A DNA stretch of 64,000 nt from a virus, in the IMG/VR virus record IMGVR_UViG_3300044641_004147, positions 29,347-93,346 of that record. One strand, written 5' to 3'. The notes beneath the pieces were generated by a model, which saw only the letters and a program-made list of their open reading frames with translations, was not told the origin of the DNA and did not search any database. Each line of letters starts with the position of its first letter. Positions within the stretch are counted from its first letter, which is position 1. This document shows positions 5,257 to 55,374 of this stretch, one piece after another. The position numbers were made by a program, and so were the translations under genes.

Positions 5257-8200
5257 ATGAGCAAAAGAAAATTAATTGGCAAATCAAGGTTACTTAATCC
5301 CTATGACAAAAGTGGTGTTTACACCACGGATGAAATAACCAACATTGAATTAGAAAATAAAAATCTATTACTAACAGGCGTAAAGCATCGCCGTCACGAT
5401 GTCTACACTGAATTTACTGGTAATGTTGATCCTTACTACAATCATGTGGTCTGTCATATTCCAGGTGCAACCTACGACACCCATGTGCTTAAAGATCAGT
5501 CCGGTAACAACTTTGATGAATTTTTATACGCCAACGACTATAGAATTGAAGCAGGCATCAATGAGTCGGGTCCAAAAGAATATCACTCGATATATTTTTG
5601 GGATCAGGCATATCATGTAACAGATGCAGCCAGTTTGCGATTAGGAACAAATAATTTTACCATTGAATTCTGGATGAAAACTGGACGAGCATTTGGCGCA
5701 GAATCGTACATCATGGGCAAAGGTTCCGGTGGCGGCCGCGCCAGTGGTGGCACCGGATGGGTAATCTATCTCACCTCAGGAAACCTAATAGGATTTTACG
5801 ACGGCTTAGGAAATACTTCAACACAGAGCACCACAGCAATTACGCACGATACTTGGACGCACATTGCTATAGTGAGATCTGCTGGTGCAGTGACCATTTA
5901 TCAAAATGGTGTTAGTGTGGGCACTGGCACTAGTTCGGGTAATTTTACAGATACTGCAACCATGGTCATTGGCAGAGACAGAGACACTGGTGCTAATTAT
6001 TATGGTGGGTACTTGTTTGATCTTCGTATTCGTACATCTGTAGTATATTCGGCTAATTTCACACCGCCCACAGATCTACTGGATATGAGCAATTCTATTC
6101 TTAGTATATCTGGTTCAGAACCATATCACCCTTATCACACAGGCATTCAACGAGAAGGTCGTACTGTCACTAACTGGGGCGGCTATAACAGCGTTAGAAA
6201 ATATCCAGATCATCCGTTCATTGTTAAGTTTCCTAGACCCACTGGCAGCGGTATGAGCTGTTCTGTTCGGGCAAACGACCGAGGGTACCAAATTGCAGAC
6301 AGTAAACCTGGGCGAAGTTTACAATTTGGTACAGGAGCATTTACTATAGAGTGCTGGGTTTTCGTATCATATGCTGGAAGAGCCTCTCAATTTGGTATAG
6401 CAGGCAAAGGCACAGGTGATGCAGCCGCTGCTGGAGCCACTGGCTGGAGTTTTATCTGTAACGGAAGTCAACTTCAATGGAGTGATGGCACCAGTGCTTT
6501 GGTAACTGGCACCAACGCAGTTTTAGGCGGCAGTGCTTGGAACCATGTGGCAGCAGTAAGAGAAGGCACCGGTACAAATCAGTTTAAGATGTATGTCAAT
6601 GGTCAATTGGCCTATACTGGAACGCTGGCCTCTAACTATAATCAAACTAGTCCGCTAGTACTCTGTGCTAGTAGAAACCATCAATATCAACCGCAAGGTG
6701 TCAGATTCTTTGGGATGAAAATTAGTAATGTTGCCAGATACACTGCACCATTTACTATTACACGATCTACTTTTTACGACACAGTGGCCACTAACGATGC
6801 TAACACCTTGCTTTATATGTTTGATACCAAAGACAAACGAGCAAGACCATTTAAGGCACAGTATATCAGCGACGGCTACGAACCGCTGTCGGCTAGAGCC
6901 AGAGGCACCACAGGGCAGCATAGACTAGGAAGCCGAGGATTGTACACTGGCAATCACAGTGTTTCAAATATAGCTGGTGGCGCCAGTAGTACATTGTTTA
7001 CATCCACTACGCAAGGAAGTTATAGCTTTGGCACCAGCGATTTCTCTATAGAATTTTGGATATGTAATCAGTACGAATGGGAGCCTATTATGAATGCTGC
7101 TCCTAGATTTTTATTTGACTGTCGAGCTAACTTCAACGATGGTACTGGATTTGCAATGAGATATAATTTCAGAGCATTGCAGATTATAACCGGAGGTATG
7201 GTTATATTAGCTGACTCATCGGCCTATTTTCCACAGCGAGCATGGTCTCATATTTGTTTGCAAAGAACTGCGGGACAATTGGCATTGTATGTCAATGGAG
7301 AAAAAAGAGCAGAAACATTTTATGCCGGCACCATGGCAGCGGCCAGCAATAAAATGTATTTTATGAACGGTGCCTTTAATGTACGCAACGATCAGCGTTG
7401 GTACGGATGGATGTCTGACATCAGAATTTTAAATGGCTCCGGAGCTTACAGTGTCGGAACTTCAAATCCGGAGCGTATTCGTGTTCCCACTCAGCCGCTA
7501 ACGGCTATTACAAATACAGTTCTGTTAACAGCAGGACAACCAACACTGAGAGATTATTCCAGTGTTGATAATCTTGTTTGGGCAGGTAATAGACCAGATG
7601 CAACTCATACTAGTTCTTGGGATGTTTATATCAGCGGGTTTGGACCTTATACCAGTCAAGATAAATCCTTAGGAATGACCACTGATTTTTGGGACGGTAG
7701 TTATTCTGGTGGTCACTCAGAGCCGGACTATAACACTGGCAATGACGCAATGATAGAGATGACTTGGATGACTAGGTTAGCCAAACCTTGGACTTTAGAA
7801 ACATGGTTCTATCAACCTCAAACCGATCCTAATGCCATTGCAACAGTACCGACTGCGGTATACACTGCAACGTCCAACAATGAAAACGGTTGGCAACTTA
7901 TAACAAACTATGCTGCCGGAGCTAACAGCTACAATGATGTGTCATTTGTTTGGCGCTCACCGAGACTGGCCGCCGGAGCCAATGAGTTTTTGAACACTAC
8001 TACCGGTAATGGAAATATACGTCCACACAGTTGGAACCATGTAGCAGTGGTCTATGATCCTAGCAAAACTACTAAAGCTGCACTTTTTGTTAATGGAAAA
8101 AGAGTAGCCACACGGGCATCGTTTACACAAAGTTATTCATTGGCCTATACCTATAGAATACAACACAGTGGATATCACGGCGCTGGTGATGTTAAAATAA

Positions 8201-36735: not shown

Positions 36736-39700
36736 ATGACAACACGAATCAGTAGTAATAACTTAGACACTTCAGTAACAGCTCAATTTGGGCCAAAAAT
36801 TTCTGGCATCGTTGTAACCAATGACAGTTACACTAACCTAGATGATACCGCAGTGGATATAGCCGGAGGCTACATTAAAATTATAGGCACAGGTTTTGCT
36901 ACAGGTTGTCAAGTTTTAATTAACACTACACCAGCAACCAGTGTTACTTATATCAGCAGTACCGAAGTTAGAGCACAGTTGCCAGCCACAGCCGCAGGTA
37001 CTTATGTGGTTTATTTGGTTAACACAGATGGTGGTGTGGCTATCAGATTCAATGGCGTTACTTTCAGCGGTATACCCACTTGGTCTACCAGCAGTGCTTT
37101 AGCTGGGGCTGACACAGACTCTGCAATAAGTATCCAATTAGCAGCCACTGGCGACACTCCTATGACCTATGCACTACAGGCTGGCAGTAGCTTACCTGTG
37201 GGCTTGTCTTTAAACAGCAGTGGCCTGCTGTCAGGCGCGGTCACCGGACTTAACAACGATACCACTTATAATTTTACCGTTGTGGCCACGGATGCACAAT
37301 TGCAAGACAGTCCCAGAGCATTTAGCATTACCATTACCTCTGGAGATCCAAGTTGGGCGTATGTCTCAACATTGTTAAACGCAGATGTTATGCCATTTAA
37401 CGCAGATACTAGTACTAATAACTTTGCCGTAAGTGCGTTTGGCGATACTAGACCTAATAATTTTGGCCCCTACACACCAGGTTATTATAGTGTGGCTATG
37501 AATGGTGGAACCAGTGGTGATCTATTGAGTTTTCCTAGCAGTTCTACGGCATACAATCTCAGTGGCGGAACTTGGACAGTTGAGATGTGGATGTATCCCA
37601 CAATGTCCACATTTTCGGATGGAGATTGTAGAATACTAATGGCCGGGTCAAACGGTACTAACTCGGCATGGCAGTTATTTATAAACAGTAATCGTCTCAT
37701 CGGATTTGGGATTCCATTCGGAGGCACTACAAGCGTATTCACAGGCAACAGTGCTTTTTCTTTTAATACATGGACCCATGTGGCTGTGGTATGCCAGGCC
37801 GGAAGTGCTATAATTTATGTAAATGGTGTAAGTGCTGGTGGCCCAACAAGTATAACATTACCTGCTTCTGTGTCTGTGGGATTTAAGATAGGCTACGATA
37901 ACGTAGGAACAGTCAGTACACAGTTTGCTGGATTTATTACTAATGTTCGCATCAACACAACAACAGCAATATACACAGCCGCCTTTACACCACCCACAGC
38001 ACCTTTAACGGCTGTTTCTGGAACCAGCCTGCTAACCTGCCAAAGCAATAGATATCTAGACACAAGTACAAATGCACTATCTGTTACTGTTGCCGGTAGT
38101 CCGCGGATATCAGGATTTGATCCATTTGTACCTGCCACTAATTACAGTACCTATGGTAGTACTTACTTTGATGGCACCGGTGATTATTTGTCTGTTCCTT
38201 CTAATAGTGCATTTGCATTTGGCACTGGGGATTATACAATAGAGGCATGGGTTTATATTACAGTAAGTGCTGCTCAGGCAATAGTAGGTAACGGAGACGG
38301 CGCTGTGGCGAACCCGTACTTTTACATTAATGGAACTACCCCTACTCTTTTCTTTAATAACGCCGCACTGGCATCGGGACCTGCTATTCCTCTAAATGCC
38401 TGGACACATGTTGCGGTTACAAGATCTGGTACACTAGTTCAAGTATTTACTAATGGAGTAGCCGGTACCGGTGCCACAAACGCAACCTCAATGATATCGT
38501 CTGGACTAACCATCGGTGCATCAAGCGTGCCGTCTCAGTTTATCACCGGATATATATCTAATCTTCGAGTCGTCAAAGGCACCGCGGTCTATACTTCGGC
38601 ATTTACTCCATCCACTCAACCACTAACTGCTATTGCCAACACCAGTTTACTAACACTGCAAACTAACACGCCAGCCAACAACAGCGTATTCATCGATAAC
38701 AGTACCAACAACTTCTTAATCACTCGCAACGGTAATACCACACAGGGCACATTCAGTCCCTACGGTGCAGGTTGGAGCAACTACTTTGATGGCACTGGGG
38801 ATTTTTTAAGTTTTCCTGCCACTGCGGCAACGAGCTTTGGTACAGGTGACTATACCATTGAGTTCTGGATATACCTAGTGGGTACTGGCGATTTCACTGT
38901 GTTTGATAATCAAGGTTCGGGCGGCGCCAGTCAAATATCTAGAATAAGTGGAACATTATATCACGGCAGTGCCAGTACCTGGTCATATACATTTACCAGA
39001 GATGTTTGGACACACATTGCTTTTAGCAGACAAGGAACTAATTTAAGATTATTTGCCAACGGAGCACTCCAGCAAACTCAAACCAATAGTAGCGTCGTTG
39101 GAAGTGCATCGAATACAAATACCATTGGCATGAGAAATGACAATTTTTATTCATTCAATGGATATCTTTCTAATCTGCGTATTGTAAAGGGCACAGCAGT
39201 ATACACTGCCGCATTTACACCAAGTGCAACACCACTACAACCCATTGCCAACACTAGTTTACTAACCTGTGCAGATCCTAGATTTGTAGATGATTCAGGA
39301 AACAACTTTGCCATTACTCGTAACGGTGATGTTAGCATTCAACGATTCAGTCCTTTTGCTGGCACCACATTGCCCGCACCCGCCTACAGTGCTTACTTTG
39401 ATGGCACTGGGGATCATTTAATTGTTCCTGCTATTACACCAACTGCTGGCAATGCAACAGTTGAGTTTTGGATATATCCTGCAACAACACAAGCGTACAT
39501 AGGAGATGCATTCATTGTAGGCACAACAGACAATACTGCAGGCACCTGGGCAATTAGTTTGAGCTCAAACAATACCATAGGTGTTTGGGTTGACGCCTAT
39601 AATAGTATTAAATTTGTTTCAACTACTGCTGTTAATAGAACTACCTGGAATCATATTGCACTGGTTAAAACAGGTGGTATAATCTACTTGTATGTAAATG

Positions 39701-41187
39701 GTGTACAGCAGGCATCAACATACTCTCAAGCAGGAACTTTTGGGCGCAATGCTACTATACACATCGGTCAATATTCCGCTGGCGGACAAAATTTTACCGG
39801 GCACATATCCAATTTAAGGATAGTTTATGGTACCGCAGTTTATACCGCAAACTTCACTCCACCCACAGCACCATTAACTGCAATAGCCAATACCAGTTTA
39901 TTAACCTGTCAGAGTGCAACATTCACGGACAATTCAACTAATGCATTTAGCATAACTGCTTTCGGCAACAGCCAACCATCACTATTCAGTCCATTTGCAG
40001 TCGCTTACTTGACTAAGCAAAGTTATACACCTGCGGTCTTCGGTGGCAGTATGTACTTTGATGGCACTGGTGATTTTTTAACTGTTCCTGACTCTACCGC
40101 TTTTACCATGGGAGCTGGCGATTTTACGCTTGAATGTTGGATAAATTTGTCAACAATTTCCGGTTCTCAAATAGTAATTGGAACTTGTGATTCAGGTGGT
40201 TCTCAGGGTTCTATGAGTTTTGTCCTGCAGGTTAACAGTGGAACACCTAGAATAGGAGTAGGTTATAACGGTGCTATGTATTTTGCTACAGCAGCATCTG
40301 CAATTACACCCAACCAGTGGTATCATATTGCAGGTGTTCGCAATGGTGCTAGTGTCTATATATATGTAAATGGAGTTCGATCTGCTCCTTTAGATATGGC
40401 AGCATTAGCTATAACTGATTCGTCACAAGTTGTTGGCATTGGTAGAAACGGTAATTTCAACGGGGAATATGTAACTGGATACATCAGCGATCTTCGCATA
40501 GTTAAAGGTCAAGCAGTTTACACCAGTAACTTTGCTCCTCCAGTAGCACCCTTGTCATTCAACGCAAATGCTGTATTACAAGTCAACGGAACCAGCGCCG
40601 GCGTACTAGACGGTTCAGCAATGGTCAATTTAGAAACGGTTGGTGGCGCACAAATTAGTACAAGTATTAAGAAATACAGCACTGGTAGCATATACTTTGA
40701 TGGCACTGGGGATTATTTGGCTACAAACAGTACACTAATAACAAATTTTGGAGCAGGACTGTTTACTATAGAATCTTGGGTATATTTTAATTCTGTGTCA
40801 GGTACTCAATATATAATGTCAACTTATCAAGATTCAGGCACAGGCTGGGCCCTTGGCTTATTCAACTCAAAGTTTAATTTTTGGTCAACAGGAGACGGGC
40901 CAGATATTGTTGGCACAACCACTCCTGTTATTAACACATGGTATCACTTGGCAGCATCGGGCCAAACAGGATCAATAAAACTTTTTGTAAACGGAATTCA
41001 AGAAGGATCTACATATACTGGCGCAACAGCATTAAACTCTACATCCACTTTGCGTGTTGGCGACGGAGCAGGTGCCGCAGCCGGCCAAGCCTTAAACGGC
41101 TATCTAGACGATGTTCGTATCACCCGCGGTGCGGCCCGTTATATCACTACCTTTACTCCGCCTACGGGTGCATTCAGAGGCAAGTAA
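36736..41187 (+). CDS. Giant adhesin: IPT/TIG, He_PIG and six LamG domains
   Basis: 1483 residues. The N-terminus is an IPT/TIG-like plus He_PIG-like pair (about 10-200) paralogous to that in the first gene of the window. Six LamG lectin domains follow, each opening with a YFDGTGDxL strand (or a variant of it), at about residues 251, 474, 681, 885, 1104 and 1316. Five of them share the DNA string TACTTTGATGGCAC nearly unchanged, which suggests recent duplication. The protein ends after the sixth LamG. It closes the adhesin array and is likely a multivalent glycan-binding appendage. Confidence 0.88.
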   Translation: MTTRISSNNLDTSVTAQFGPKISGIVVTNDSYTNLDDTAVDIAGGYIKIIGTGFATGCQVLINTTPATSVTYISSTEVRAQLPATAAGTYVVYLVNTDGGVAIRFNGVTFSGIPTWSTSSALAGADTDSAISIQLAATGDTPMTYALQAGSSLPVGLSLNSSGLLSGAVTGLNNDTTYNFTVVATDAQLQDSPRAFSITITSGDPSWAYVSTLLNADVMPFNADTSTNNFAVSAFGDTRPNNFGPYTPGYYSVAMNGGTSGDLLSFPSSSTAYNLSGGTWTVEMWMYPTMSTFSDGDCRILMAGSNGTNSAWQLFINSNRLIGFGIPFGGTTSVFTGNSAFSFNTWTHVAVVCQAGSAIIYVNGVSAGGPTSITLPASVSVGFKIGYDNVGTVSTQFAGFITNVRINTTTAIYTAAFTPPTAPLTAVSGTSLLTCQSNRYLDTSTNALSVTVAGSPRISGFDPFVPATNYSTYGSTYFDGTGDYLSVPSNSAFAFGTGDYTIEAWVYITVSAAQAIVGNGDGAVANPYFYINGTTPTLFFNNAALASGPAIPLNAWTHVAVTRSGTLVQVFTNGVAGTGATNATSMISSGLTIGASSVPSQFITGYISNLRVVKGTAVYTSAFTPSTQPLTAIANTSLLTLQTNTPANNSVFIDNSTNNFLITRNGNTTQGTFSPYGAGWSNYFDGTGDFLSFPATAATSFGTGDYTIEFWIYLVGTGDFTVFDNQGSGGASQISRISGTLYHGSASTWSYTFTRDVWTHIAFSRQGTNLRLFANGALQQTQTNSSVVGSASNTNTIGMRNDNFYSFNGYLSNLRIVKGTAVYTAAFTPSATPLQPIANTSLLTCADPRFVDDSGNNFAITRNGDVSIQRFSPFAGTTLPAPAYSAYFDGTGDHLIVPAITPTAGNATVEFWIYPATTQAYIGDAFIVGTTDNTAGTWAISLSSNNTIGVWVDAYNSIKFVSTTAVNRTTWNHIALVKTGGIIYLYVNGVQQASTYSQAGTFGRNATIHIGQYSAGGQNFTGHISNLRIVYGTAVYTANFTPPTAPLTAIANTSLLTCQSATFTDNSTNAFSITAFGNSQPSLFSPFAVAYLTKQSYTPAVFGGSMYFDGTGDFLTVPDSTAFTMGAGDFTLECWINLSTISGSQIVIGTCDSGGSQGSMSFVLQVNSGTPRIGVGYNGAMYFATAASAITPNQWYHIAGVRNGASVYIYVNGVRSAPLDMAALAITDSSQVVGIGRNGNFNGEYVTGYISDLRIVKGQAVYTSNFAPPVAPLSFNANAVLQVNGTSAGVLDGSAMVNLETVGGAQISTSIKKYSTGSIYFDGTGDYLATNSTLITNFGAGLFTIESWVYFNSVSGTQYIMSTYQDSGTGWALGLFNSKFNFWSTGDGPDIVGTTTPVINTWYHLAASGQTGSIKLFVNGIQEGSTYTGATALNSTSTLRVGDGAGAAAGQALNGYLDDVRITRGAARYITTFTPPTGAFRGK

Positions 41188-41193
41188 AATCTC

Positions 41194-41222
41194 TTGCAAG
41201 TCCGATTTATTTGCTATATAAT
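41194..41222 (+). promoter_or_regulatory. Consensus sigma70-type promoter, leaderless
   Basis: TTGCAA (41194-41199), a 17-nt spacer and TATAAT (41217-41222). The -10 box ends 6 nt before the ATG at 41229, so the expected start site coincides with the first base of the start codon, and no Shine-Dalgarno is present. Confidence 0.8.
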
Positions 41223-41228
41223 AGCATA

Positions 41229-44200
41229 ATGAAAATTGCTATCATTGACATAATCGGACTTCCATACGATGGCACCACGGTATACCGCCAAGGACTAGGT
41301 GGATCTGAAAGTGCTGTTACCTACATGAGTGCAGAACTGGCCGCACTGGGATTTGAGGTAACAGTATTCAATAACTGTAACATCGACCACGCACAGGCCG
41401 GCAAGTACTCGGGCGTAACTTACCGCCCACTTTCAGATCTTGCCCACGATCACTATTTTGACATTGTGGTCAGCAGTCGCACTATTATTCCGTTTATGCC
41501 GCCGGAACGGTATCATGAATTGCAGGACAATCGTGCTATGCCACTGCAAGGTTATAATATCTATAACCGAATCTGTGCTCAGGCAAAGATGCGTGTGCTT
41601 TGGATGCATGACACATTTTGTCTTGGTGATAACTATATCGAAGAATTAGCAGTCGGCAATCGCATCACAGATATTTTCACACTCAGCGACTTTCATTTAA
41701 CCTATGTGGCCAACTGCAACCATGGCCGTCGTAGAAACTTTGAAGTACTAAAGTCAAAACTGTTTATCACTCGCAACGGTGCTAAAAAGTTTGATGTTCC
41801 AGTTAATGTATCCGCCAAGGACCGTAACTTATTTGTTTACAATGCGTCTGTGACCAAAGGCATGATACCATTGGTTAACGAAATTTGGCCCATGGTACGA
41901 CAAGTCATACCTACTGCAAGATTAAAGGTCATTGGCGGCTATTATAGATTCAGCGAGGCACATGGTCCCGACCAACAAGAGCAAGATTGGCGGCGTATGG
42001 TTGCAGACCCAAAGTATTCTGCCCAGGGCATAGAGTTCACTGGTGTTATTCCACAAAGTGAAATTGCAGAAATACTAGCACAGGCCTACATGATGATCTA
42101 TCCTGGAGCATTTCCAGAGACATTTGGCATCAGCAGTTTAGAAAGTTTAATTTACAATACACCTGTGGCCACTTGCAGGTTTGGTGCCTTAGAAGAAATT
42201 GTGCCGGAGTTGGCAGGCTACCACTTAGATTATGCCATTGAGCCCAACAGTCTATTCACAGATATAGATCGTAGTCGTCAGTGTCAGCTATTTGCTGACA
42301 TGGTTATTCGTGCATGGAATAACCCATACCTACACCAGCAAAAACAATATTACTGTAATGCAGTCAAAGACATTGCCGGTTGGGATAGTGTAGCCTTACA
42401 GTGGAAGCAATGGTTCTATCGCAAAACCGGTAACTATCTCAGCAGAGATCAGTACCGCCGTGTGAGTAAAATAAACCATGCAGTACATAAAATCTGGGGT
42501 CGTAGATACACCAACACTGTAGAATTTGAATCATACAAATCCGGCCAAGAACAACCTATTCGTGTAGTCAGTACTTTTTATAATGCCGAACAATACATCG
42601 GCAAGTTTATTACCAGTGTGGCCTGTCAAGACTACAACAGCTACGAAGTTTATATGGTCAATGATGCCAGCACTGACAGTACTGCGGCAGCAATTCATAG
42701 TGCGCTGGCTCAGCTGCCTGCAGAAATTGCACAAAAGTTTCATGTAGTCAACAACAGAGAAAATCGTGGCGCAGTGGCTAACCAAGTGGCAGTGCTTCGT
42801 GCCTTGGCAGACACAGACAGTATTGTAATGGTCATTGACGGTGACGATTGGTTAGTCAATGACAACAGTATATTCAGCTACTACAACACCGTCTATGATG
42901 GCACCGTAGAATTTACCTATGGTAGTTGCTGGAGTGTAGTTGATAATATTCCGTTGATTAGCCAACCCTACCCTGCGGAGATTAAACAGGCCCGTGCTTA
43001 TAGAAAACATCAGTTTAACTGGATACTACCTTACACACACCTGCGTACATTTAAATCTCAATTGATTAAAAATATACCTGACAGTGCATTTCAAGACAGT
43101 CACGGACAATGGTATCGAGCTGGCGGAGATGGCAGTACCTTTTACAATTTAATCGAAGCTGCTGATCCTGCGGGTGTTCGTTGCTTGCCCGAGATTGTTT
43201 ACTGTTACAACGATGCCAGCCCGCTTAACGATTACAAAGTCAACGGCCAAGAACAAAATCGTACAGCACAAGAAATAGTCAATAGAACCACAGAAGAAAA
43301 GAAAGAATCACCTAAAATGGATTACATCCCAGTATTAGAAAACGAATATCAGTGGGCCTGCGACACGCCCAGCGACATTAACCAACACCTGCCACTGCTG
43401 AGGTCCTTGGCCGACGAGTGCAACACTGTGGTTGAATTGGGTGTGCGTACTGGAATCTCTACCAGAGCATTGTTAGTCAGCAGGGCTCGTTTATACAGCT
43501 ATGATATTAGCTTAGAGCAGTCAGTGACCAATCTGTTTAATTTGGCCAAGCAAGCCGGAAAAGTCTGTAGTTATGAATCTGCTGACAGTTTGACAATGAC
43601 TATTCCGGAAACTGATTTACTGTTCATTGACACATATCATACCTATGCACAGTTATCGGCTGAACTCAGACAGCATCACAGTCGTGCAAAAAAATATATA
43701 GCCTTCCACGACACATTTACCTATGGATTAAAAACAGATCAAGACCCTAAGAAAGGTATACTGACAGCCATTATGGAGTTCATGGTTGAACATCCTGAAT
43801 GGCGTTTGAAATATCACACTTCTGAGAACAATGGATTTACAGTTTTAGAAAAGTCTGCACCAGCATCTAAGTCAGTGACTACAATGGCAAAGAAGATTCT
43901 AGTGGCTATTCCTACTGCTAGAAATATCGAAGCAGAAACTTTTAAAAGCATTTACGATCTAGAAGTGCCCGACGGATACAGGGTTGATTTTCAATATTTC
44001 TATGGCTACAACATTGATCAGGTACGCAACTTAATTGCCGACTGGGTAGTTCGTGGCTATGATTATCTGTTTAGTGTAGATTCAGACATTGCGTTTCCAC
44101 CAGATACACTAAAGAGGTTATTAGCACACAATGTTGACATGGTATCGGGACTGTATATTCAACGCAAGCCCGGGCAACACACTTTAGAAGTCTACGAACA

Positions 44201-45173
44201 TAACGGTCAGGGTGGCGTCAGTAATATTCCCTACGGAAAAATCAAAGGGCGCGGTCTAGTAGAAATTGCCAGTTCTGGCTTTGGCTGTGTGTTGGTCCGG
44301 GGCGAAGTTATGCGAGCTATTCCGTATCCGCACTTCAAATATCACAGCGCCATTGATCATCGTAACACCATCAGCGAAGATGTGGATTTCTGCAAAAAGG
44401 CGTTAGCTCAAGGATTTAAGATTTGGGCAGACACAGACATTCAATGCCGACACATTGGCAGTTCAGAATTTCTAGTAGATAACAATATTCCTGCTGTGGA
44501 AACACCTGTGGTTAACATACAGGATCGTCTGCGCGAATTAGGCAATCAGCGACTGCTGCCTAAAACGCATATAGACTATCTGTTGCAGTTAAAGTTGTCA
44601 GGATACACCCCTAAGGTAGTCTATGACATTGGCAGTTGCGTTATGCATTGGACCAATGAATCATTGAGAATTTGGCCCGATGCTCATTATGTGTTGTTTG
44701 AGGCTATGCCATCTGTGGAATTTTTATATCAAGAGCGCGGAATCAGAGATTATCACATTGGAGTGTTAGCTTCCGAGTCTGGCCGTACTGTGGAATTCTG
44801 GCAAAATGATTACCATCCTGGTGGCAACAGCTACTACAAAGAAAATGTGGCTATTAACCCTGGTGTTCCTGAATACTTTATGCGTAAGTACACAACAAAA
44901 ACATTGGCCGAAGTAGTGGCACAGCGTCAGTTTCCCTTGCCCGATCTGGTTAAAATGGATGTGCAAGGTGCCGAAATGGATATTGTTCGTGGTGCAGAAG
45001 GTATTATTAAACATGCCCAACATGTTATATTAGAATTGCAAAAAGTTGAATACAATACTGGCGCACCACTGCACCAAGAAGTAATTGCATATATGGATCA
45101 ACTGGGCTTTGACTGTCTGGGCATTTTCAGTGACAACGGCCCGGACGGTGACTATCACTTTGTTCGCCGATAA
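41229..45173 (+). CDS. Five-domain glycosyltransferase/methyltransferase fusion
   Basis: 1314 residues; the start at 41229 is chosen because a consensus promoter ends 6 nt upstream. Domain 1 (about 1-410) is a GT4-like glycosyltransferase (GLGGSESAVTYMSAEL; FPETFGISSLESL). Domain 2 (about 438-680) is a GT2-like transferase with DGDDW at 537-541. Domain 3 (about 720-878) is a class I methyltransferase-like fold (VVELGVRTGISTRALL, then LLFIDTYHTY). Domain 4 (about 886-1080) is a second GT2-like domain with DSDIAFP near 951. Domain 5 (about 1130-1314) is an FkbM-type methyltransferase (VKMDVQGAEMDIVRGAE; D1244). It probably builds or caps a glycan. Targets could be phage fibres, the host surface or modified DNA bases; the sequence does not decide. 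Confidence 0.85.
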   Translation: MKIAIIDIIGLPYDGTTVYRQGLGGSESAVTYMSAELAALGFEVTVFNNCNIDHAQAGKYSGVTYRPLSDLAHDHYFDIVVSSRTIIPFMPPERYHELQDNRAMPLQGYNIYNRICAQAKMRVLWMHDTFCLGDNYIEELAVGNRITDIFTLSDFHLTYVANCNHGRRRNFEVLKSKLFITRNGAKKFDVPVNVSAKDRNLFVYNASVTKGMIPLVNEIWPMVRQVIPTARLKVIGGYYRFSEAHGPDQQEQDWRRMVADPKYSAQGIEFTGVIPQSEIAEILAQAYMMIYPGAFPETFGISSLESLIYNTPVATCRFGALEEIVPELAGYHLDYAIEPNSLFTDIDRSRQCQLFADMVIRAWNNPYLHQQKQYYCNAVKDIAGWDSVALQWKQWFYRKTGNYLSRDQYRRVSKINHAVHKIWGRRYTNTVEFESYKSGQEQPIRVVSTFYNAEQYIGKFITSVACQDYNSYEVYMVNDASTDSTAAAIHSALAQLPAEIAQKFHVVNNRENRGAVANQVAVLRALADTDSIVMVIDGDDWLVNDNSIFSYYNTVYDGTVEFTYGSCWSVVDNIPLISQPYPAEIKQARAYRKHQFNWILPYTHLRTFKSQLIKNIPDSAFQDSHGQWYRAGGDGSTFYNLIEAADPAGVRCLPEIVYCYNDASPLNDYKVNGQEQNRTAQEIVNRTTEEKKESPKMDYIPVLENEYQWACDTPSDINQHLPLLRSLADECNTVVELGVRTGISTRALLVSRARLYSYDISLEQSVTNLFNLAKQAGKVCSYESADSLTMTIPETDLLFIDTYHTYAQLSAELRQHHSRAKKYIAFHDTFTYGLKTDQDPKKGILTAIMEFMVEHPEWRLKYHTSENNGFTVLEKSAPASKSVTTMAKKILVAIPTARNIEAETFKSIYDLEVPDGYRVDFQYFYGYNIDQVRNLIADWVVRGYDYLFSVDSDIAFPPDTLKRLLAHNVDMVSGLYIQRKPGQHTLEVYEHNGQGGVSNIPYGKIKGRGLVEIASSGFGCVLVRGEVMRAIPYPHFKYHSAIDHRNTISEDVDFCKKALAQGFKIWADTDIQCRHIGSSEFLVDNNIPAVETPVVNIQDRLRELGNQRLLPKTHIDYLLQLKLSGYTPKVVYDIGSCVMHWTNESLRIWPDAHYVLFEAMPSVEFLYQERGIRDYHIGVLASESGRTVEFWQNDYHPGGNSYYKENVAINPGVPEYFMRKYTTKTLAEVVAQRQFPLPDLVKMDVQGAEMDIVRGAEGIIKHAQHVILELQKVEYNTGAPLHQEVIAYMDQLGFDCLGIFSDNGPDGDYHFVRR

Positions 45174-45193: not shown

Positions 45194-45373
45194 ATGAGAC
45201 TAAAGGAATTTATCAGAACAACATTCAACAATGACGGCGTACTAGATGTCTATGAGCATGGCCGTCACGAAGTTAACCAACCATTTAACAGCGAAACTGG
45301 CGAAAAGTTCAAGGATCAAGACGAAGCATTGTCTTGGTTATTAAAATACTACCCTAATTATTTTACGCCCTGA
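45194..45373 (+). CDS. 59-residue late protein, function unknown
   Basis: ATG at 45194 with AAAGAGG 6 nt upstream and a late promoter in front; the frame closes at TGA 45371-45373. The product (MRLKEFIRTTFNNDGVLDVY ... WLLKYYPNYFTP) is charged and soluble. Its 3' end overlaps the end of the convergent Nudix gene by 16 nt. The N-terminus resembles those of the charged proteins near 60985 and 61943 (M-(K/R)-x-x-x-(F/Y)-x-x-(E/D)), but no family is recognised. Confidence 0.65.
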   Translation: MRLKEFIRTTFNNDGVLDVYEHGRHEVNQPFNSETGEKFKDQDEALSWLLKYYPNYFTP

Positions 45374-45789
45374 TTTAGCAGGCGTTGCACCGTTTTTAGT
45401 TTTTCGATAACTTCGTTAAAATTAATGGTGCGCCAAACGCCAGGGTGCAAGGGCTTTGGATGATCTTCGACTGCACACCAAGCGTACCCTTTGTGTTCTT
45501 CGTTGAGCACAGGCACAAACTCATCATCCACAGGAATTAAAAATGTGTGATAAGTGAATTTGTTGTTTTCGCTGGTAAACTTTTCAATTGGATACAGTTT
45601 GGCATTGGGTATAACGCCGCCCAATTCTTCTTCAATTTCTCTGGCTAGGCCTTCTGACACAGTTTCGCCTCGCTCTATTTTGCCGCCAGGTAAACCCCAG
45701 GTATTAGCATATTTGTTTCCGCTACGCAGTAGGAACAAATATCGTTTGGTGCTAATACTGTAAATTAGTGCTCCAGTACTTTCAATCAA
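45358..45789 (-). CDS. Nudix hydrolase
   Basis: 143 residues with a complete Nudix box at residues 36-58 (GKIERGETVSEGLAREIEEELG fits G-x5-E-x7-R-E-U-x-E-E-x-G-U). Family members hydrolyse nucleoside diphosphates linked to another moiety, such as oxidised dNTPs, nucleotide sugars or capped RNA; the substrate here is unknown. A TTG start (45789-45787) overlaps the TGA of the upstream gp15-like gene, so it is coupled to virion genes and expressed late. A role with the neighbouring glycan enzyme (nucleotide sugars) is possible but speculative. Confidence 0.88.
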   Translation of the reverse strand: MIESTGALIYSISTKRYLFLLRSGNKYANTWGLPGGKIERGETVSEGLAREIEEELGGVIPNAKLYPIEKFTSENNKFTYHTFLIPVDDEFVPVLNEEHKGYAWCAVEDHPKPLHPGVWRTINFNEVIEKLKTVQRLLNQGVK

Positions 45790-48366: not shown

Positions 48367-48395
48367 TTGACAAACTATAATTTTGGATGTATAAT
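48367..48395 (+). promoter_or_regulatory. Consensus sigma70-type promoter, leaderless
   Basis: TTGACA (48367-48372), a 17-nt spacer, TATAAT (48390-48395), then 6 nt to ATG 48402. The upstream in-frame ATG at 48387 overlaps the promoter itself and is not likely to be transcribed. Confidence 0.85.
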
Positions 48396-48663: not shown

Positions 48664-48692
48664 TTGACAAACGGTTCAAAATCTGCTATAAT
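48664..48692 (+). promoter_or_regulatory. Perfect-consensus sigma70-type promoter
   Basis: TTGACA (48664-48669), a 17-nt spacer, TATAAT (48687-48692). Unlike its neighbours it has a normal leader with AAAGGAG (48707-48713) 7 nt before the ATG at 48721. Confidence 0.88.
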
Positions 48693-52164: not shown

Positions 52165-55100
52165 ATGGCAGCATTAGTATCCCCTGGCATTAGCATCACA
52201 GTTATCGACGAAAGCCAATACTTACCAACCGCGGTTGGAACAGTTCCTTTCGTGCTATTTGCTAGTGCCGAGAATAAAGTAGTAAACAACGCCATTGCCC
52301 CGGGTACCAAGAAAGCCAATGCAGGCAAGGTATATGGTATTAGCAGCCAACGAGAATTAGTAGCCACATTTGGTGCTCCTACATTCCGTTTGAGTGCTTC
52401 TGGTACTCCGCTACATGGCAATGAGCTAAACGAATACGGTCTATTAGCCGCTTACAGCGCACTAGGCGTAGGTAATCGTGTCTGGGCCATCCGTGCCGAT
52501 ATTAACTTAGATGAGTTAGTTGGCACCACAGTTCGCCCAATCGGTGAAGTACCCGATGGTACTAACTGGTTAGACACCGCAGAAACAGAATGGGGTGTTT
52601 ACGAATACGATCAAATCAATAACGATTATGTGAACAAGGTTCCGCTGATTATTTCTAGCTGGAATGATATCACAGTCACCGGTGGTGTACCAACACCAAA
52701 CCAAAGCCTAGGCACAATTGGTGCTTATGCAGTGGTAGTTCGTGATGCTAATAACTACACATTCTACAAAAATAGTCTCAATGACTGGGTACAAATTGGC
52801 AGTTTAGATTGGCAAAATAGCCACCCTGCTGTATCTGGTACAAACAGCAGTCCTAACTTTACCGCAGGCAGAAGTTTCAGCATCAACGGCGTTGCTGTAA
52901 ATATTCCAGCTGGTACGCCTGATGTGGCCACCGTGGTTACTATTATTAATGCTCTAAACATCAATGGTGTTACTGCCGATATTGTCAATGGTTTCCTAGC
53001 ACTATATGTAGATGGAACCAGTAGCAGCACAGGCGGAACAGCCAATGGCGCTATTGCACTAGTCGACGGTACTGGTACAGGCCTAGCAGAACTAGGCATT
53101 GGTGCTGGCACATACTACGCTCCAGAGCTATACTATGGTAGTTTTAACCAAAACCCAAGTTGGAGCAGCTTTGATCCAATTCCTCGACCAACAGGTTCTG
53201 TATGGTTGAAGACCAGTGTTGCTGGCAATGGTGCAAACTTTGCAGTTAAGCAGTGGAATGGCACAACCAAGGCCTGGAACAAGTTGGCTACACCAATTTA
53301 CGCCGATGGATATGATGCACTATACGGTCTAGACAGCACCGGTGGTGGCCAGAATCTTCGTGCAGGTGCTATGTTTGTTAAGTATGACACCAACAATAAC
53401 GGCAACCTAAGCTTCAAACTATACGAATTAGTAATGGGCGGCAAGGTTGAAGTGTCTGGTTCTACTGTAGCCGGATCATTTGTATCTGGCAGCACATTTA
53501 CAATGCTAGTAAGCCAGCCTGGCACAAACATGCCAAGCACATACAATATTACAATCACTGGTACAAACGCCAGCGATTTTGTTACAGCTATTCTAGCCGC
53601 TAACATTCCTAATGTCACAGCCCGTGTAAACGGAGCAGGCGTAATCACAGTTCTGCACAATGCTGGTGGTTTAGTTACATTAGTTAATACTACAGTTGGC
53701 ACTAACCCAATTACCACAGCTGGCTTTACCACCAGCACCGTTGGCGTAGTTCCAAATCTAGTACCTGGTAGCATCACGCTAACCAACTGGCGTCTAGCTA
53801 CATACACATTCAGTGACACTGAGCCATACACAGCACCAGATGATGGTCGTCTATGGTACTACAGCGATCCTACAGCAGTTGATATCATGATCTGTGACAC
53901 CAATGGCTGGAAGGGTTACAAGAATGTAGCTCGTGATGCTCGTGGCTTTAACCTACAAGTAACTGATCCAGGTGGCGTTATTATTGCTGCCAGCGAGCCA
54001 GTTACACAAAGTGATGGCACACAGCTAGAGCCGGGTGATCTATGGTTAGACAGCAGTGATCTAGAAAACTATCCAAAACTATATCGCCGTACTGCTACTA
54101 ACAGATGGCAACTAATTGATAACACCGACAGCATTAGCCAAAACGGTATTGTATTTGCTGATGTTCGTTGGGATGGTGACAGCAACCACACTGGTGGTAA
54201 CACAGATCCGATCTCTGGAGATTATCCTAGCTGTGCAGACATGCAGTCCAGCAACTATATTGACTTAGACGCTCCGGATTTCCGCTTGTTCCCACGCGGC
54301 ACATTGCTATTCAACACTCGTCGTAGCGGCTACAATGTTAAGAAATACATTGGTAACTACTTCAATGCACAGGCATTCCCAAATAACATTCTGCCAACAG
54401 TCAAGGCAGCTTGGGTCACAGATAGTGGCAACAAGCAAGATGGTACACCATATGCTGGACACTGGGCACAGCGAGCAGTTATTGTTCGTGCTCTAAAGGC
54501 AGCACTAGACGGAAGCCTAGACATCCGCGAAGAAGGTTATAACTTTAACCTATTGACCTGCTCTGGATATCCAGAGTTGATACCTAACTTGATCGCACTA
54601 AACAACGATCGTAGCAACACAGGCTTTATCATTGGCGACACACCGATGACATTGCCAGCTACAATCAGTGACATCACTAACTACAACAATACTGTAGCAG
54701 TGAATCGCGATCCGTATGTGGCTCTGTACTATCCAAGTGCATTGACTAACGACCTAAGTGGTAACGAAGTTGCAGTACCTGCTAGCCATATTATGTTACG
54801 CACATACATTCGCAACGACAATGTAGCATATCAGTGGTTTGCACCAGCCGGTACACGCCGCGGTCTAGTAGACAATGCTACAGCAATTGGATATGTTGAT
54901 GCTAGAAGTGGATTGTTTGTTAATACCGGTATTGGCAAGGGTCTGCGCGATGCACTATATGAACTAAATCTAAACCCAATTACTTTACTGTTGGGTACAG
55001 GTCTAGTAGTGTATGGTCAGAAGACACGCAACCCAGTATCCAGCGCACTGGATCGTGTAAACGTTGCACGACTGGTAAACTATTTGCGTGTGGTGCTACA

Positions 55101-55374
55101 ACCACTGGCCAACCAATTCTTGTTTGAGCCAAATGACAAGATCACTCGTGATCAAGTTAAGCAGGTTGTTGAAAGTGTACTAAATGATCTAGTAGCCAAG
55201 CGTGGTCTGTATGATTACTTGGTTGTCTGTGATAACAGCAACAATACACCAGACCGTATCGCAAGAAACGAGCTGTACATCGATATCGCTGTCGAGCCAA
55301 TGAAGGCTGTAGAATTTATCTACATTCCAATTCGCTTGAAGAACCCAGGTGCCATCAGCGGAGGCACAGCTTAA
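52165..55374 (+). CDS. 18: Tail sheath protein, T4 gp18-like
   Basis: 1069 residues against about 660 in T4. N-terminal VSPGISITVIDES is a typical sheath start. The C-terminal 320 residues carry the conserved sheath core: HWAQRAVIVRALKAALDGS (about 763), NRDPYVALYYP, RGLVDNATAIGYVD, VNVARLVNYLRVVLQPLANQFLFEPND (FEPND near 987), LYDYLVVCDNSNNTPD and AVEFIYIPIRL. The excess length lies between residues about 180 and 740, where several beta-rich inserts (for example NITITGTNASDFVTAILAANIP) would decorate the outside of the sheath. It contracts to drive the tube into the host. Driven by the late promoter at 52127. Confidence 0.93.
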   Translation: MAALVSPGISITVIDESQYLPTAVGTVPFVLFASAENKVVNNAIAPGTKKANAGKVYGISSQRELVATFGAPTFRLSASGTPLHGNELNEYGLLAAYSALGVGNRVWAIRADINLDELVGTTVRPIGEVPDGTNWLDTAETEWGVYEYDQINNDYVNKVPLIISSWNDITVTGGVPTPNQSLGTIGAYAVVVRDANNYTFYKNSLNDWVQIGSLDWQNSHPAVSGTNSSPNFTAGRSFSINGVAVNIPAGTPDVATVVTIINALNINGVTADIVNGFLALYVDGTSSSTGGTANGAIALVDGTGTGLAELGIGAGTYYAPELYYGSFNQNPSWSSFDPIPRPTGSVWLKTSVAGNGANFAVKQWNGTTKAWNKLATPIYADGYDALYGLDSTGGGQNLRAGAMFVKYDTNNNGNLSFKLYELVMGGKVEVSGSTVAGSFVSGSTFTMLVSQPGTNMPSTYNITITGTNASDFVTAILAANIPNVTARVNGAGVITVLHNAGGLVTLVNTTVGTNPITTAGFTTSTVGVVPNLVPGSITLTNWRLATYTFSDTEPYTAPDDGRLWYYSDPTAVDIMICDTNGWKGYKNVARDARGFNLQVTDPGGVIIAASEPVTQSDGTQLEPGDLWLDSSDLENYPKLYRRTATNRWQLIDNTDSISQNGIVFADVRWDGDSNHTGGNTDPISGDYPSCADMQSSNYIDLDAPDFRLFPRGTLLFNTRRSGYNVKKYIGNYFNAQAFPNNILPTVKAAWVTDSGNKQDGTPYAGHWAQRAVIVRALKAALDGSLDIREEGYNFNLLTCSGYPELIPNLIALNNDRSNTGFIIGDTPMTLPATISDITNYNNTVAVNRDPYVALYYPSALTNDLSGNEVAVPASHIMLRTYIRNDNVAYQWFAPAGTRRGLVDNATAIGYVDARSGLFVNTGIGKGLRDALYELNLNPITLLLGTGLVVYGQKTRNPVSSALDRVNVARLVNYLRVVLQPLANQFLFEPNDKITRDQVKQVVESVLNDLVAKRGLYDYLVVCDNSNNTPDRIARNELYIDIAVEPMKAVEFIYIPIRLKNPGAISGGTA

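Follow-up and report, generated by a model that had tools for sequence, protein, structure and literature searches.

The 64,000-nucleotide window analysed here is a portion of a 93-kb IMG/VR virus record, which is an incomplete large contractile-tailed phage. It carries a gene that runs through 1314 codons without interruption, from the ATG at 41229 to the stop codon at 45171-45173, and that lies between a fibre array and sheath-related genes (Table 1). The LamG-type gene of the array ends 41 bases upstream of this ATG, in agreement with an earlier note on this DNA that had placed the enzyme gene beside fibre genes. The same note named a Nudix hydrolase gene as a neighbour, which holds, with the correction that this gene lies downstream on the minus strand, convergent with the enzyme gene and with a 59-codon ORF between them; Nudix is a recurrent neighbour, with synteny in L002, L010, L033, L042 and L058. 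The window also encodes a very long tail sheath protein (1069 aa, 52165-55374) that is about 38% identical to the sheaths of Pseudomonas phages such as PA5oct and of Sinorhizobium phage Phosso. A scan of genome contigs yielded one match, to a contig of 12 kb from a Gammaproteobacteria MAG, which is too weak for naming a host.

Table 1. Features of the enzyme locus and of its relatives. Positions refer to the window, except where a locus handle precedes them.
Feature	Position	Strand	Evidence
LamG-type fibre/adhesin protein, 1483 aa, candidate acceptor	36736..41187	+	baseplate/virion PHROGs; homologues beside enzyme gene in 250-kb and 208-kb relatives
Sigma70-like promoter, TTGCAA-N17-TATAAT	41194..41222	+	-10 ends 6 bases before enzyme ATG
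Five-module glycosyltransferase/methyltransferase gene	41229..45173	+	single open frame, domain matches, dN/dS of relatives
Module 1, aa 1-430, GT4, GT-B fold, E297-x7-E305	41229..42518	+	PF13692/PF00534, invariant motif, fold matches
Module 2, aa 436-690, GT2, GT-A, D479 and D537-G-D539-D540	42534..43298	+	PF00535, invariant motifs, profile matches
Module 3, aa 697-880, putative Methyltransf_24/CmcI-like SAM methyltransferase, variable slot	43317..43868	+	PF13578, homologue matches, invariant residues
Module 4, aa 884-1105, GT-A, phrog_1574, STIV A197-like	43878..44543	+	PHROG, profile, fold, invariant motifs
Module 5, aa 1118-1314, FkbM-family SAM methyltransferase	44580..45170	+	PF05050, TIGR01444, PDB fold matches
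59-codon ORF 3' of enzyme gene	45194..45373	+	late-promoter-like motif 25 bases upstream
Nudix hydrolase, convergent	45358..45789	-	phrog_1198, 1.6e-28
Heptose-type cassettes	L042:13041-14836, L033:8512-10253, L008:12004-13461, L013:3364-4830, L054:5634-7959		

Pfam, NCBIfam and PHROG matches bear out the view, put forward in the earlier note, that three glycosyltransferase-like and two methyltransferase-like domains are joined in a single protein; the HMM profile search and structure prediction that it proposed as a check recovered five modules by profile and gave confident models for four of them. Module 1 matches PF13692/PF00534 (2e-8/1e-6 at residues 208-334), and E297 and E305 are invariant across 50 sequences. 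AlphaFold2 modelled residues 1-690 with a mean pLDDT of 92.4 and a pTM of 0.92. The Foldseek matches of module 1 are GT-B glycosyltransferases that include glycogen synthase, BshA, WaaG, PimA, sucrose-phosphate synthase and MshA, and chondroitin polymerase was also among the matches of the 1-690 model. The GT-B fold with its E-x7-E motif assigns module 1 to the retaining GT4 family. Module 2 matches PF00535 (1.6e-18 at 446-604; 67.7 bits against a cut-off of 23.3), carries D479 and D537/D539 as motifs invariant across the 50 sequences, and accounts for the profile matches of modules 1-2 to TagF, chondroitin synthase and SpsA; with a score above the cut-off and a DxD-type motif, it belongs to the inverting, GT-A-type GT2 enzymes. 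Module 4 matches phrog_1574 (2.7e-22 at 886-1081) and its nearest solved relative, by sequence and by fold, is STIV A197 (2c0n), which was retrieved by profile at 4.6e-7 and as the best Foldseek match at 5.6e-11 (TMt 0.69). D951-x-D953, E1050-D1051 and H1075 are invariant in 45 relatives and provide the DxD motif and C-terminal histidine of an A197-like GT-A enzyme. The Methanobacteriales phage vir323 likewise has a member of the A197-like family close to its tail genes.

The two remaining modules are of methyltransferase type. Module 5 scores above the curated cut-offs of both PF05050 (2.4e-11 at 1219-1295; 44.5 bits against 22.7) and TIGR01444 (43.9 against 37.7), has a SAM motif in which D1133 and G1135 are invariant, and includes SAM O-methyltransferases among its PDB fold matches, all of which identify it as a member of the FkbM family; AlphaFold2 modelled modules 4 and 5 mostly above 90 pLDDT. 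Module 3 is matched by PF13578 (1.1e-4 at 735-828) at 23.4 bits in the whole protein and 26.9 bits as a domain alone, for a cut-off of 26.3. Among its 32 homologues, 21 match PF13578 and four match RMNT_CmcI, and E736, G738, D801, H827 and D828 are invariant. No significant match to module 3 emerged from a profile search of the PDB. Because its homologues were misaligned into module 4 in the input alignment, AlphaFold2 scored this module below about 65, and its probable identity as a Methyltransf_24-type SAM methyltransferase is drawn from sequence only.

The E-values and the conservation reject a chance origin of the ORF and its modules, and purifying selection acts in relatives of the gene, with a dN/dS of 0.04-0.05 in three close pairs (L078/L021, L020/L026 and L038/L006; module 3 lies outside this calculation). 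No internal start with a Shine-Dalgarno sequence was found at the module borders, so that separate products from the gene are unlikely. No transmembrane segment was seen in the enzyme, whose highest 19-residue hydropathy is 1.26.

The enzyme gene has a promoter-like site of its own, and its transcript is probably leaderless. A match of at least 10/12 in that position occurs in 13 of 47 loci (the window and its relatives), compared with a mean of 0.3 and a maximum of 4 of 47 in shuffles. A T4-like late motif, NATAAATA, is found 13-38 bases upstream of seven other genes of the window, several of them structural. Eighteen relatives have an upstream neighbour that is encoded on the other strand, and in 16 of them this motif points to that neighbour, as against 3.9% of background windows. 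About five of these 18 also carry the late motif in the direction of the enzyme gene, further away, and for this reason early expression, before the late structural genes, is inferred. Two perfect TTGACA-N17-TATAAT promoters lie elsewhere in the window (48367-48395 and 48664-48692); six bases separate the -10 of the former from an ATG, which suggests other leaderless genes with host-type promoters.

Environmental viral loci with this family number at least 80 in a related-locus search of viral contigs, and 50 of them remained for classification by module after removal of near-duplicates. The GT4-GT2 pair and the A197-like domain are present in 50/50 relatives, in one gene in 41 and split across neighbouring genes in nine, and FkbM is present in 35/50, though absences of modules are not firm because many contigs are short. 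Modules are exchanged around this core. Between GT2 and the A197-like domain lies a slot that is taken up by a further GT2-like domain in 15/50 relatives or is empty. Methyltransf_24 is absent from this position in all 50, and the slot methyltransferase was seen in two places only, the window and a near-identical contig that is cut by its end (L012/L116). Methyltransf_24 relatives elsewhere stand alone, are fused to a GT2-like domain or lie within a 1209-aa GT25-GT17-MT-GT2 protein. An extra GT25 is found in L025 and L043, and GT4 is duplicated in L077 and L071 and, as a separate gene, in L059. The family has been overlooked because the annotated phage collection contains no record that spans 80% of the enzyme, the matches being to single modules. 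Two proteins of uncultured Caudovirales phages retrieved by Foldseek, UniProt A0A6J5T3W3 and A0A6J5M7M7 (68% and 51% identity over modules 1-2), belong to the same family; already deposited, they are named by domain only.

Fibre linkage is likewise observed beyond the window. Thirty-six non-redundant relatives offer 5 kb or more of flanking sequence; in 28 of them the examined flank contains a homologue of the window's fibre genes, and the other eight loci had none at the search sensitivity used. The LamG homologues form one cluster at 172-187 kb in a 250-kb relative and at 153-158 kb in a 208-kb relative, and the enzyme gene adjoins these clusters at 192-196 kb and 149-153 kb, respectively. 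In L082, an ORF at 6882-7586 resembles a fatty-acid desaturase by eye and lies directly 3' of a capsid-like gene.

In five relatives the enzyme gene also adjoins the heptose-type cassettes of Table 1, which encode an HldE-II-like adenylyltransferase, an HldE-I-like kinase and a cupin, with an additional HAD protein in L042 and L033 and with HldD and a sulfotransferase in L054. HldE-II-like genes occur in 8/30 records and PF01370 epimerases in 8/25 contigs, and NTP_transferase was found in none of the 25. Since the HldE and HldD matches, strong as they are, fall below the NCBIfam cut-offs, heptose is a proposal only. The adenylyltransferase, kinase, cupin and HAD genes are also seen in the MT24-only loci L129-L131, and sulfotransferase-like genes lie downstream of GT2-like/MT24 fusions on other viral contigs (L084-L094). 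A reading by eye of one L054 ORF as TPR/heptosyltransferase-type was dropped, having no family support. HldE/HldD-type genes, nucleotide-sugar epimerases (PF01370 included) and nucleotidyltransferases were not found on the window's own incomplete 93-kb contig, and the earlier description of the protein as a complete short pathway is therefore too strong: its modules are transferases only.

We put at about an even chance the interpretation that the protein is a soluble cytoplasmic enzyme that assembles a methylated glycan, with the phage's own tail-fibre/LamG-type proteins as the likeliest acceptor. Three glycosyltransferase and two methyltransferase modules, with parts swapped among relatives, make a methyl-capped sugar chain the probable product. 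Catalytic activity, the order of action, the identity of the sugars and the methyl positions are what we infer for such an enzyme. The three glycosyltransferase modules would add sugars from host nucleotide-sugar donors, which in some relatives may come partly from ADP-heptose-type enzymes of the phage. O-methylation of sugars in the chain, probably as a cap, would fall to the two SAM-dependent modules. The chain would most likely be received by the tail-fibre/LamG-type proteins encoded beside the enzyme gene. The host-type promoter would drive the gene, probably ahead of the late structural genes, and transcription at that stage would have the enzyme present during fibre synthesis.

On a broader scale, it is conceivable, if still doubtful, that large environmental phages share a widespread exchangeable cassette in which a constant GT4-GT2-A197-like core, one variable slot (empty, or holding a second GT2-like domain or a methyltransferase), an optional FkbM, GT25 or duplicate GT4 and, in some, ADP-heptose-type and sulfotransferase genes would produce lineage-specific capped glycans on receptor-binding fibres. 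Were this so, virions would show a diversity like that of serotypes. With its fixed core and one exchangeable position, the family lends itself to testable predictions on glycan structure. Glycosylated phage virions are documented in few systems, and glycosylated fibres, if confirmed, would matter for how the phage recognises its host and for how stable its fibres are outside the cell.

Among the three targets considered in the earlier note, the fibres are the best supported, by the fibre-gene linkage, the A197-like glycosyltransferase domain, the solubility of the enzyme and the sugar-nucleotide-type genes of some relatives. Proximity to fibre genes is circumstantial as to the identity of the acceptor, and fibre proteins as the target are, in our estimation, roughly as probable as all other targets together. 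Host-surface glycans are a real and possible alternative, to which we would assign something over a fifth of the probability: the enzyme would modify a surface glycan or a cytoplasmic precursor, e.g., one that is lipid-linked or LPS-type, and thereby alter the receptor or block superinfection. The resemblance of the modules to LPS, capsule and teichoic-acid transferases argues for such a role, and the ADP-heptose-type and sulfotransferase genes that adjoin the enzyme gene in some relatives could also indicate LPS-like glycans. The host-type promoter fits early expression, and early-type transcription is equally compatible with host modification. Against it stand the enzyme's lack of a membrane segment, the embedding in the fibre array that is retained in divergent relatives, and module 4, whose closest solved viral relative is a glycosyltransferase linked to capsid glycosylation. 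The capsid protein is a possible substrate of that same relative, STIV A197, and virion proteins other than fibres (capsid, sheath or tube) are also to be weighed as acceptors. Capsid and tail-tube subunits of mycobacteriophages carry glycans (cited in PMC12619734), a podovirus (ctKR88) has a gene matching module 1 near its major capsid gene, and in the window the enzyme gene has sheath-related genes on one side. The recurring neighbour in the largest relatives is nevertheless the fibre/LamG cluster, and the window has no adjacent capsid gene, which makes such acceptors rather improbable.

Decoration of DNA bases, also proposed in the earlier note, is disfavoured and in our judgement very unlikely. 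Glycosyltransferases of DNA-hypermodifying phages are known (cited in PMC12619734), one relative has a Tet/JBP match above the cut-off, and the many GT-B fold matches include a distant one to a DNA alpha-glucosyltransferase of a phage. That Tet/JBP match is confined to one of 25 related contigs, however, and PF00303 (thymidylate-synthase/dCMP-hydroxymethylase) occurs in two of the 25, neither being one of the two largest. Neither PF00303 nor Tet/JBP was found on the window's incomplete contig, and Pfam, NCBIfam and PHROG scans of the enzyme list no DNA glucosyltransferase family, which sets it apart from T4-type DNA glucosylation. Hardly more probable is that the enzyme makes a glycoside, free or of small-molecule type, for some other purpose, for example counter-defence; BshA and MshA among the fold neighbours of module 1 would suit this, but a single chain with three glycosyltransferase and two methyltransferase modules better suits the building of an oligosaccharide, and the fibre linkage would stay unexplained.

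The reading of the protein as a builder of methylated glycans, with fibres as likeliest acceptor, finds its closest functional parallel in PBCV-1 A064R, a protein of GT-GT-methyltransferase architecture that, according to in vitro tests by others, makes the terminal part of a capsid glycan and methylates it (PMC9614988). Together with A061L, this chlorovirus system resembles the enzyme in that one viral polypeptide combines glycosyltransferase domains with a methyltransferase and produces a methylated sugar end. Most PBCV-1 glycosyltransferases are predicted to be soluble, and their genes are expressed early (PMC9614988). By contrast, A064R comes from a virus of green algae, has 638 aa and three domains of other families, and targets a capsid N-glycan, whereas the phage enzyme has five modules in the order GT-GT-MT-GT-MT, with GT4, GT2 and A197-like glycosyltransferases, and is encoded by a tailed phage. 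Judged from domain order and families, it falls outside the A064R family; it may work analogously, with other modules, and the likeness is one of function only. STIV A197, an essential viral glycosyltransferase that may glycosylate the capsid protein, is a viral GT-A enzyme matched to module 4 by profile and fold, but is a stand-alone protein of an archaeal virus (PMC10551542). PBCV-1 A111/114R and other multi-glycosyltransferase proteins of giant viruses share with the enzyme the presence of several glycosyltransferase modules per chain, and differ in their module sets, as far as can be told short of a detailed comparison, and in lying outside a phage fibre locus. In mycobacteriophages, glycans are carried by virion proteins, the capsid and the tail tube (Freeman et al., 2023, as cited in PMC12619734), and no comparable fusion is described for them in the accessible literature. 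The open-access literature yielded no characterised phage enzyme joining three glycosyltransferases and two methyltransferases, and no paper on a glycosylated phage tail together with a glycosyltransferase. What is new here is a multi-module viral glycan assembly of a known type, found in tailed phages and equipped with an exchangeable slot.
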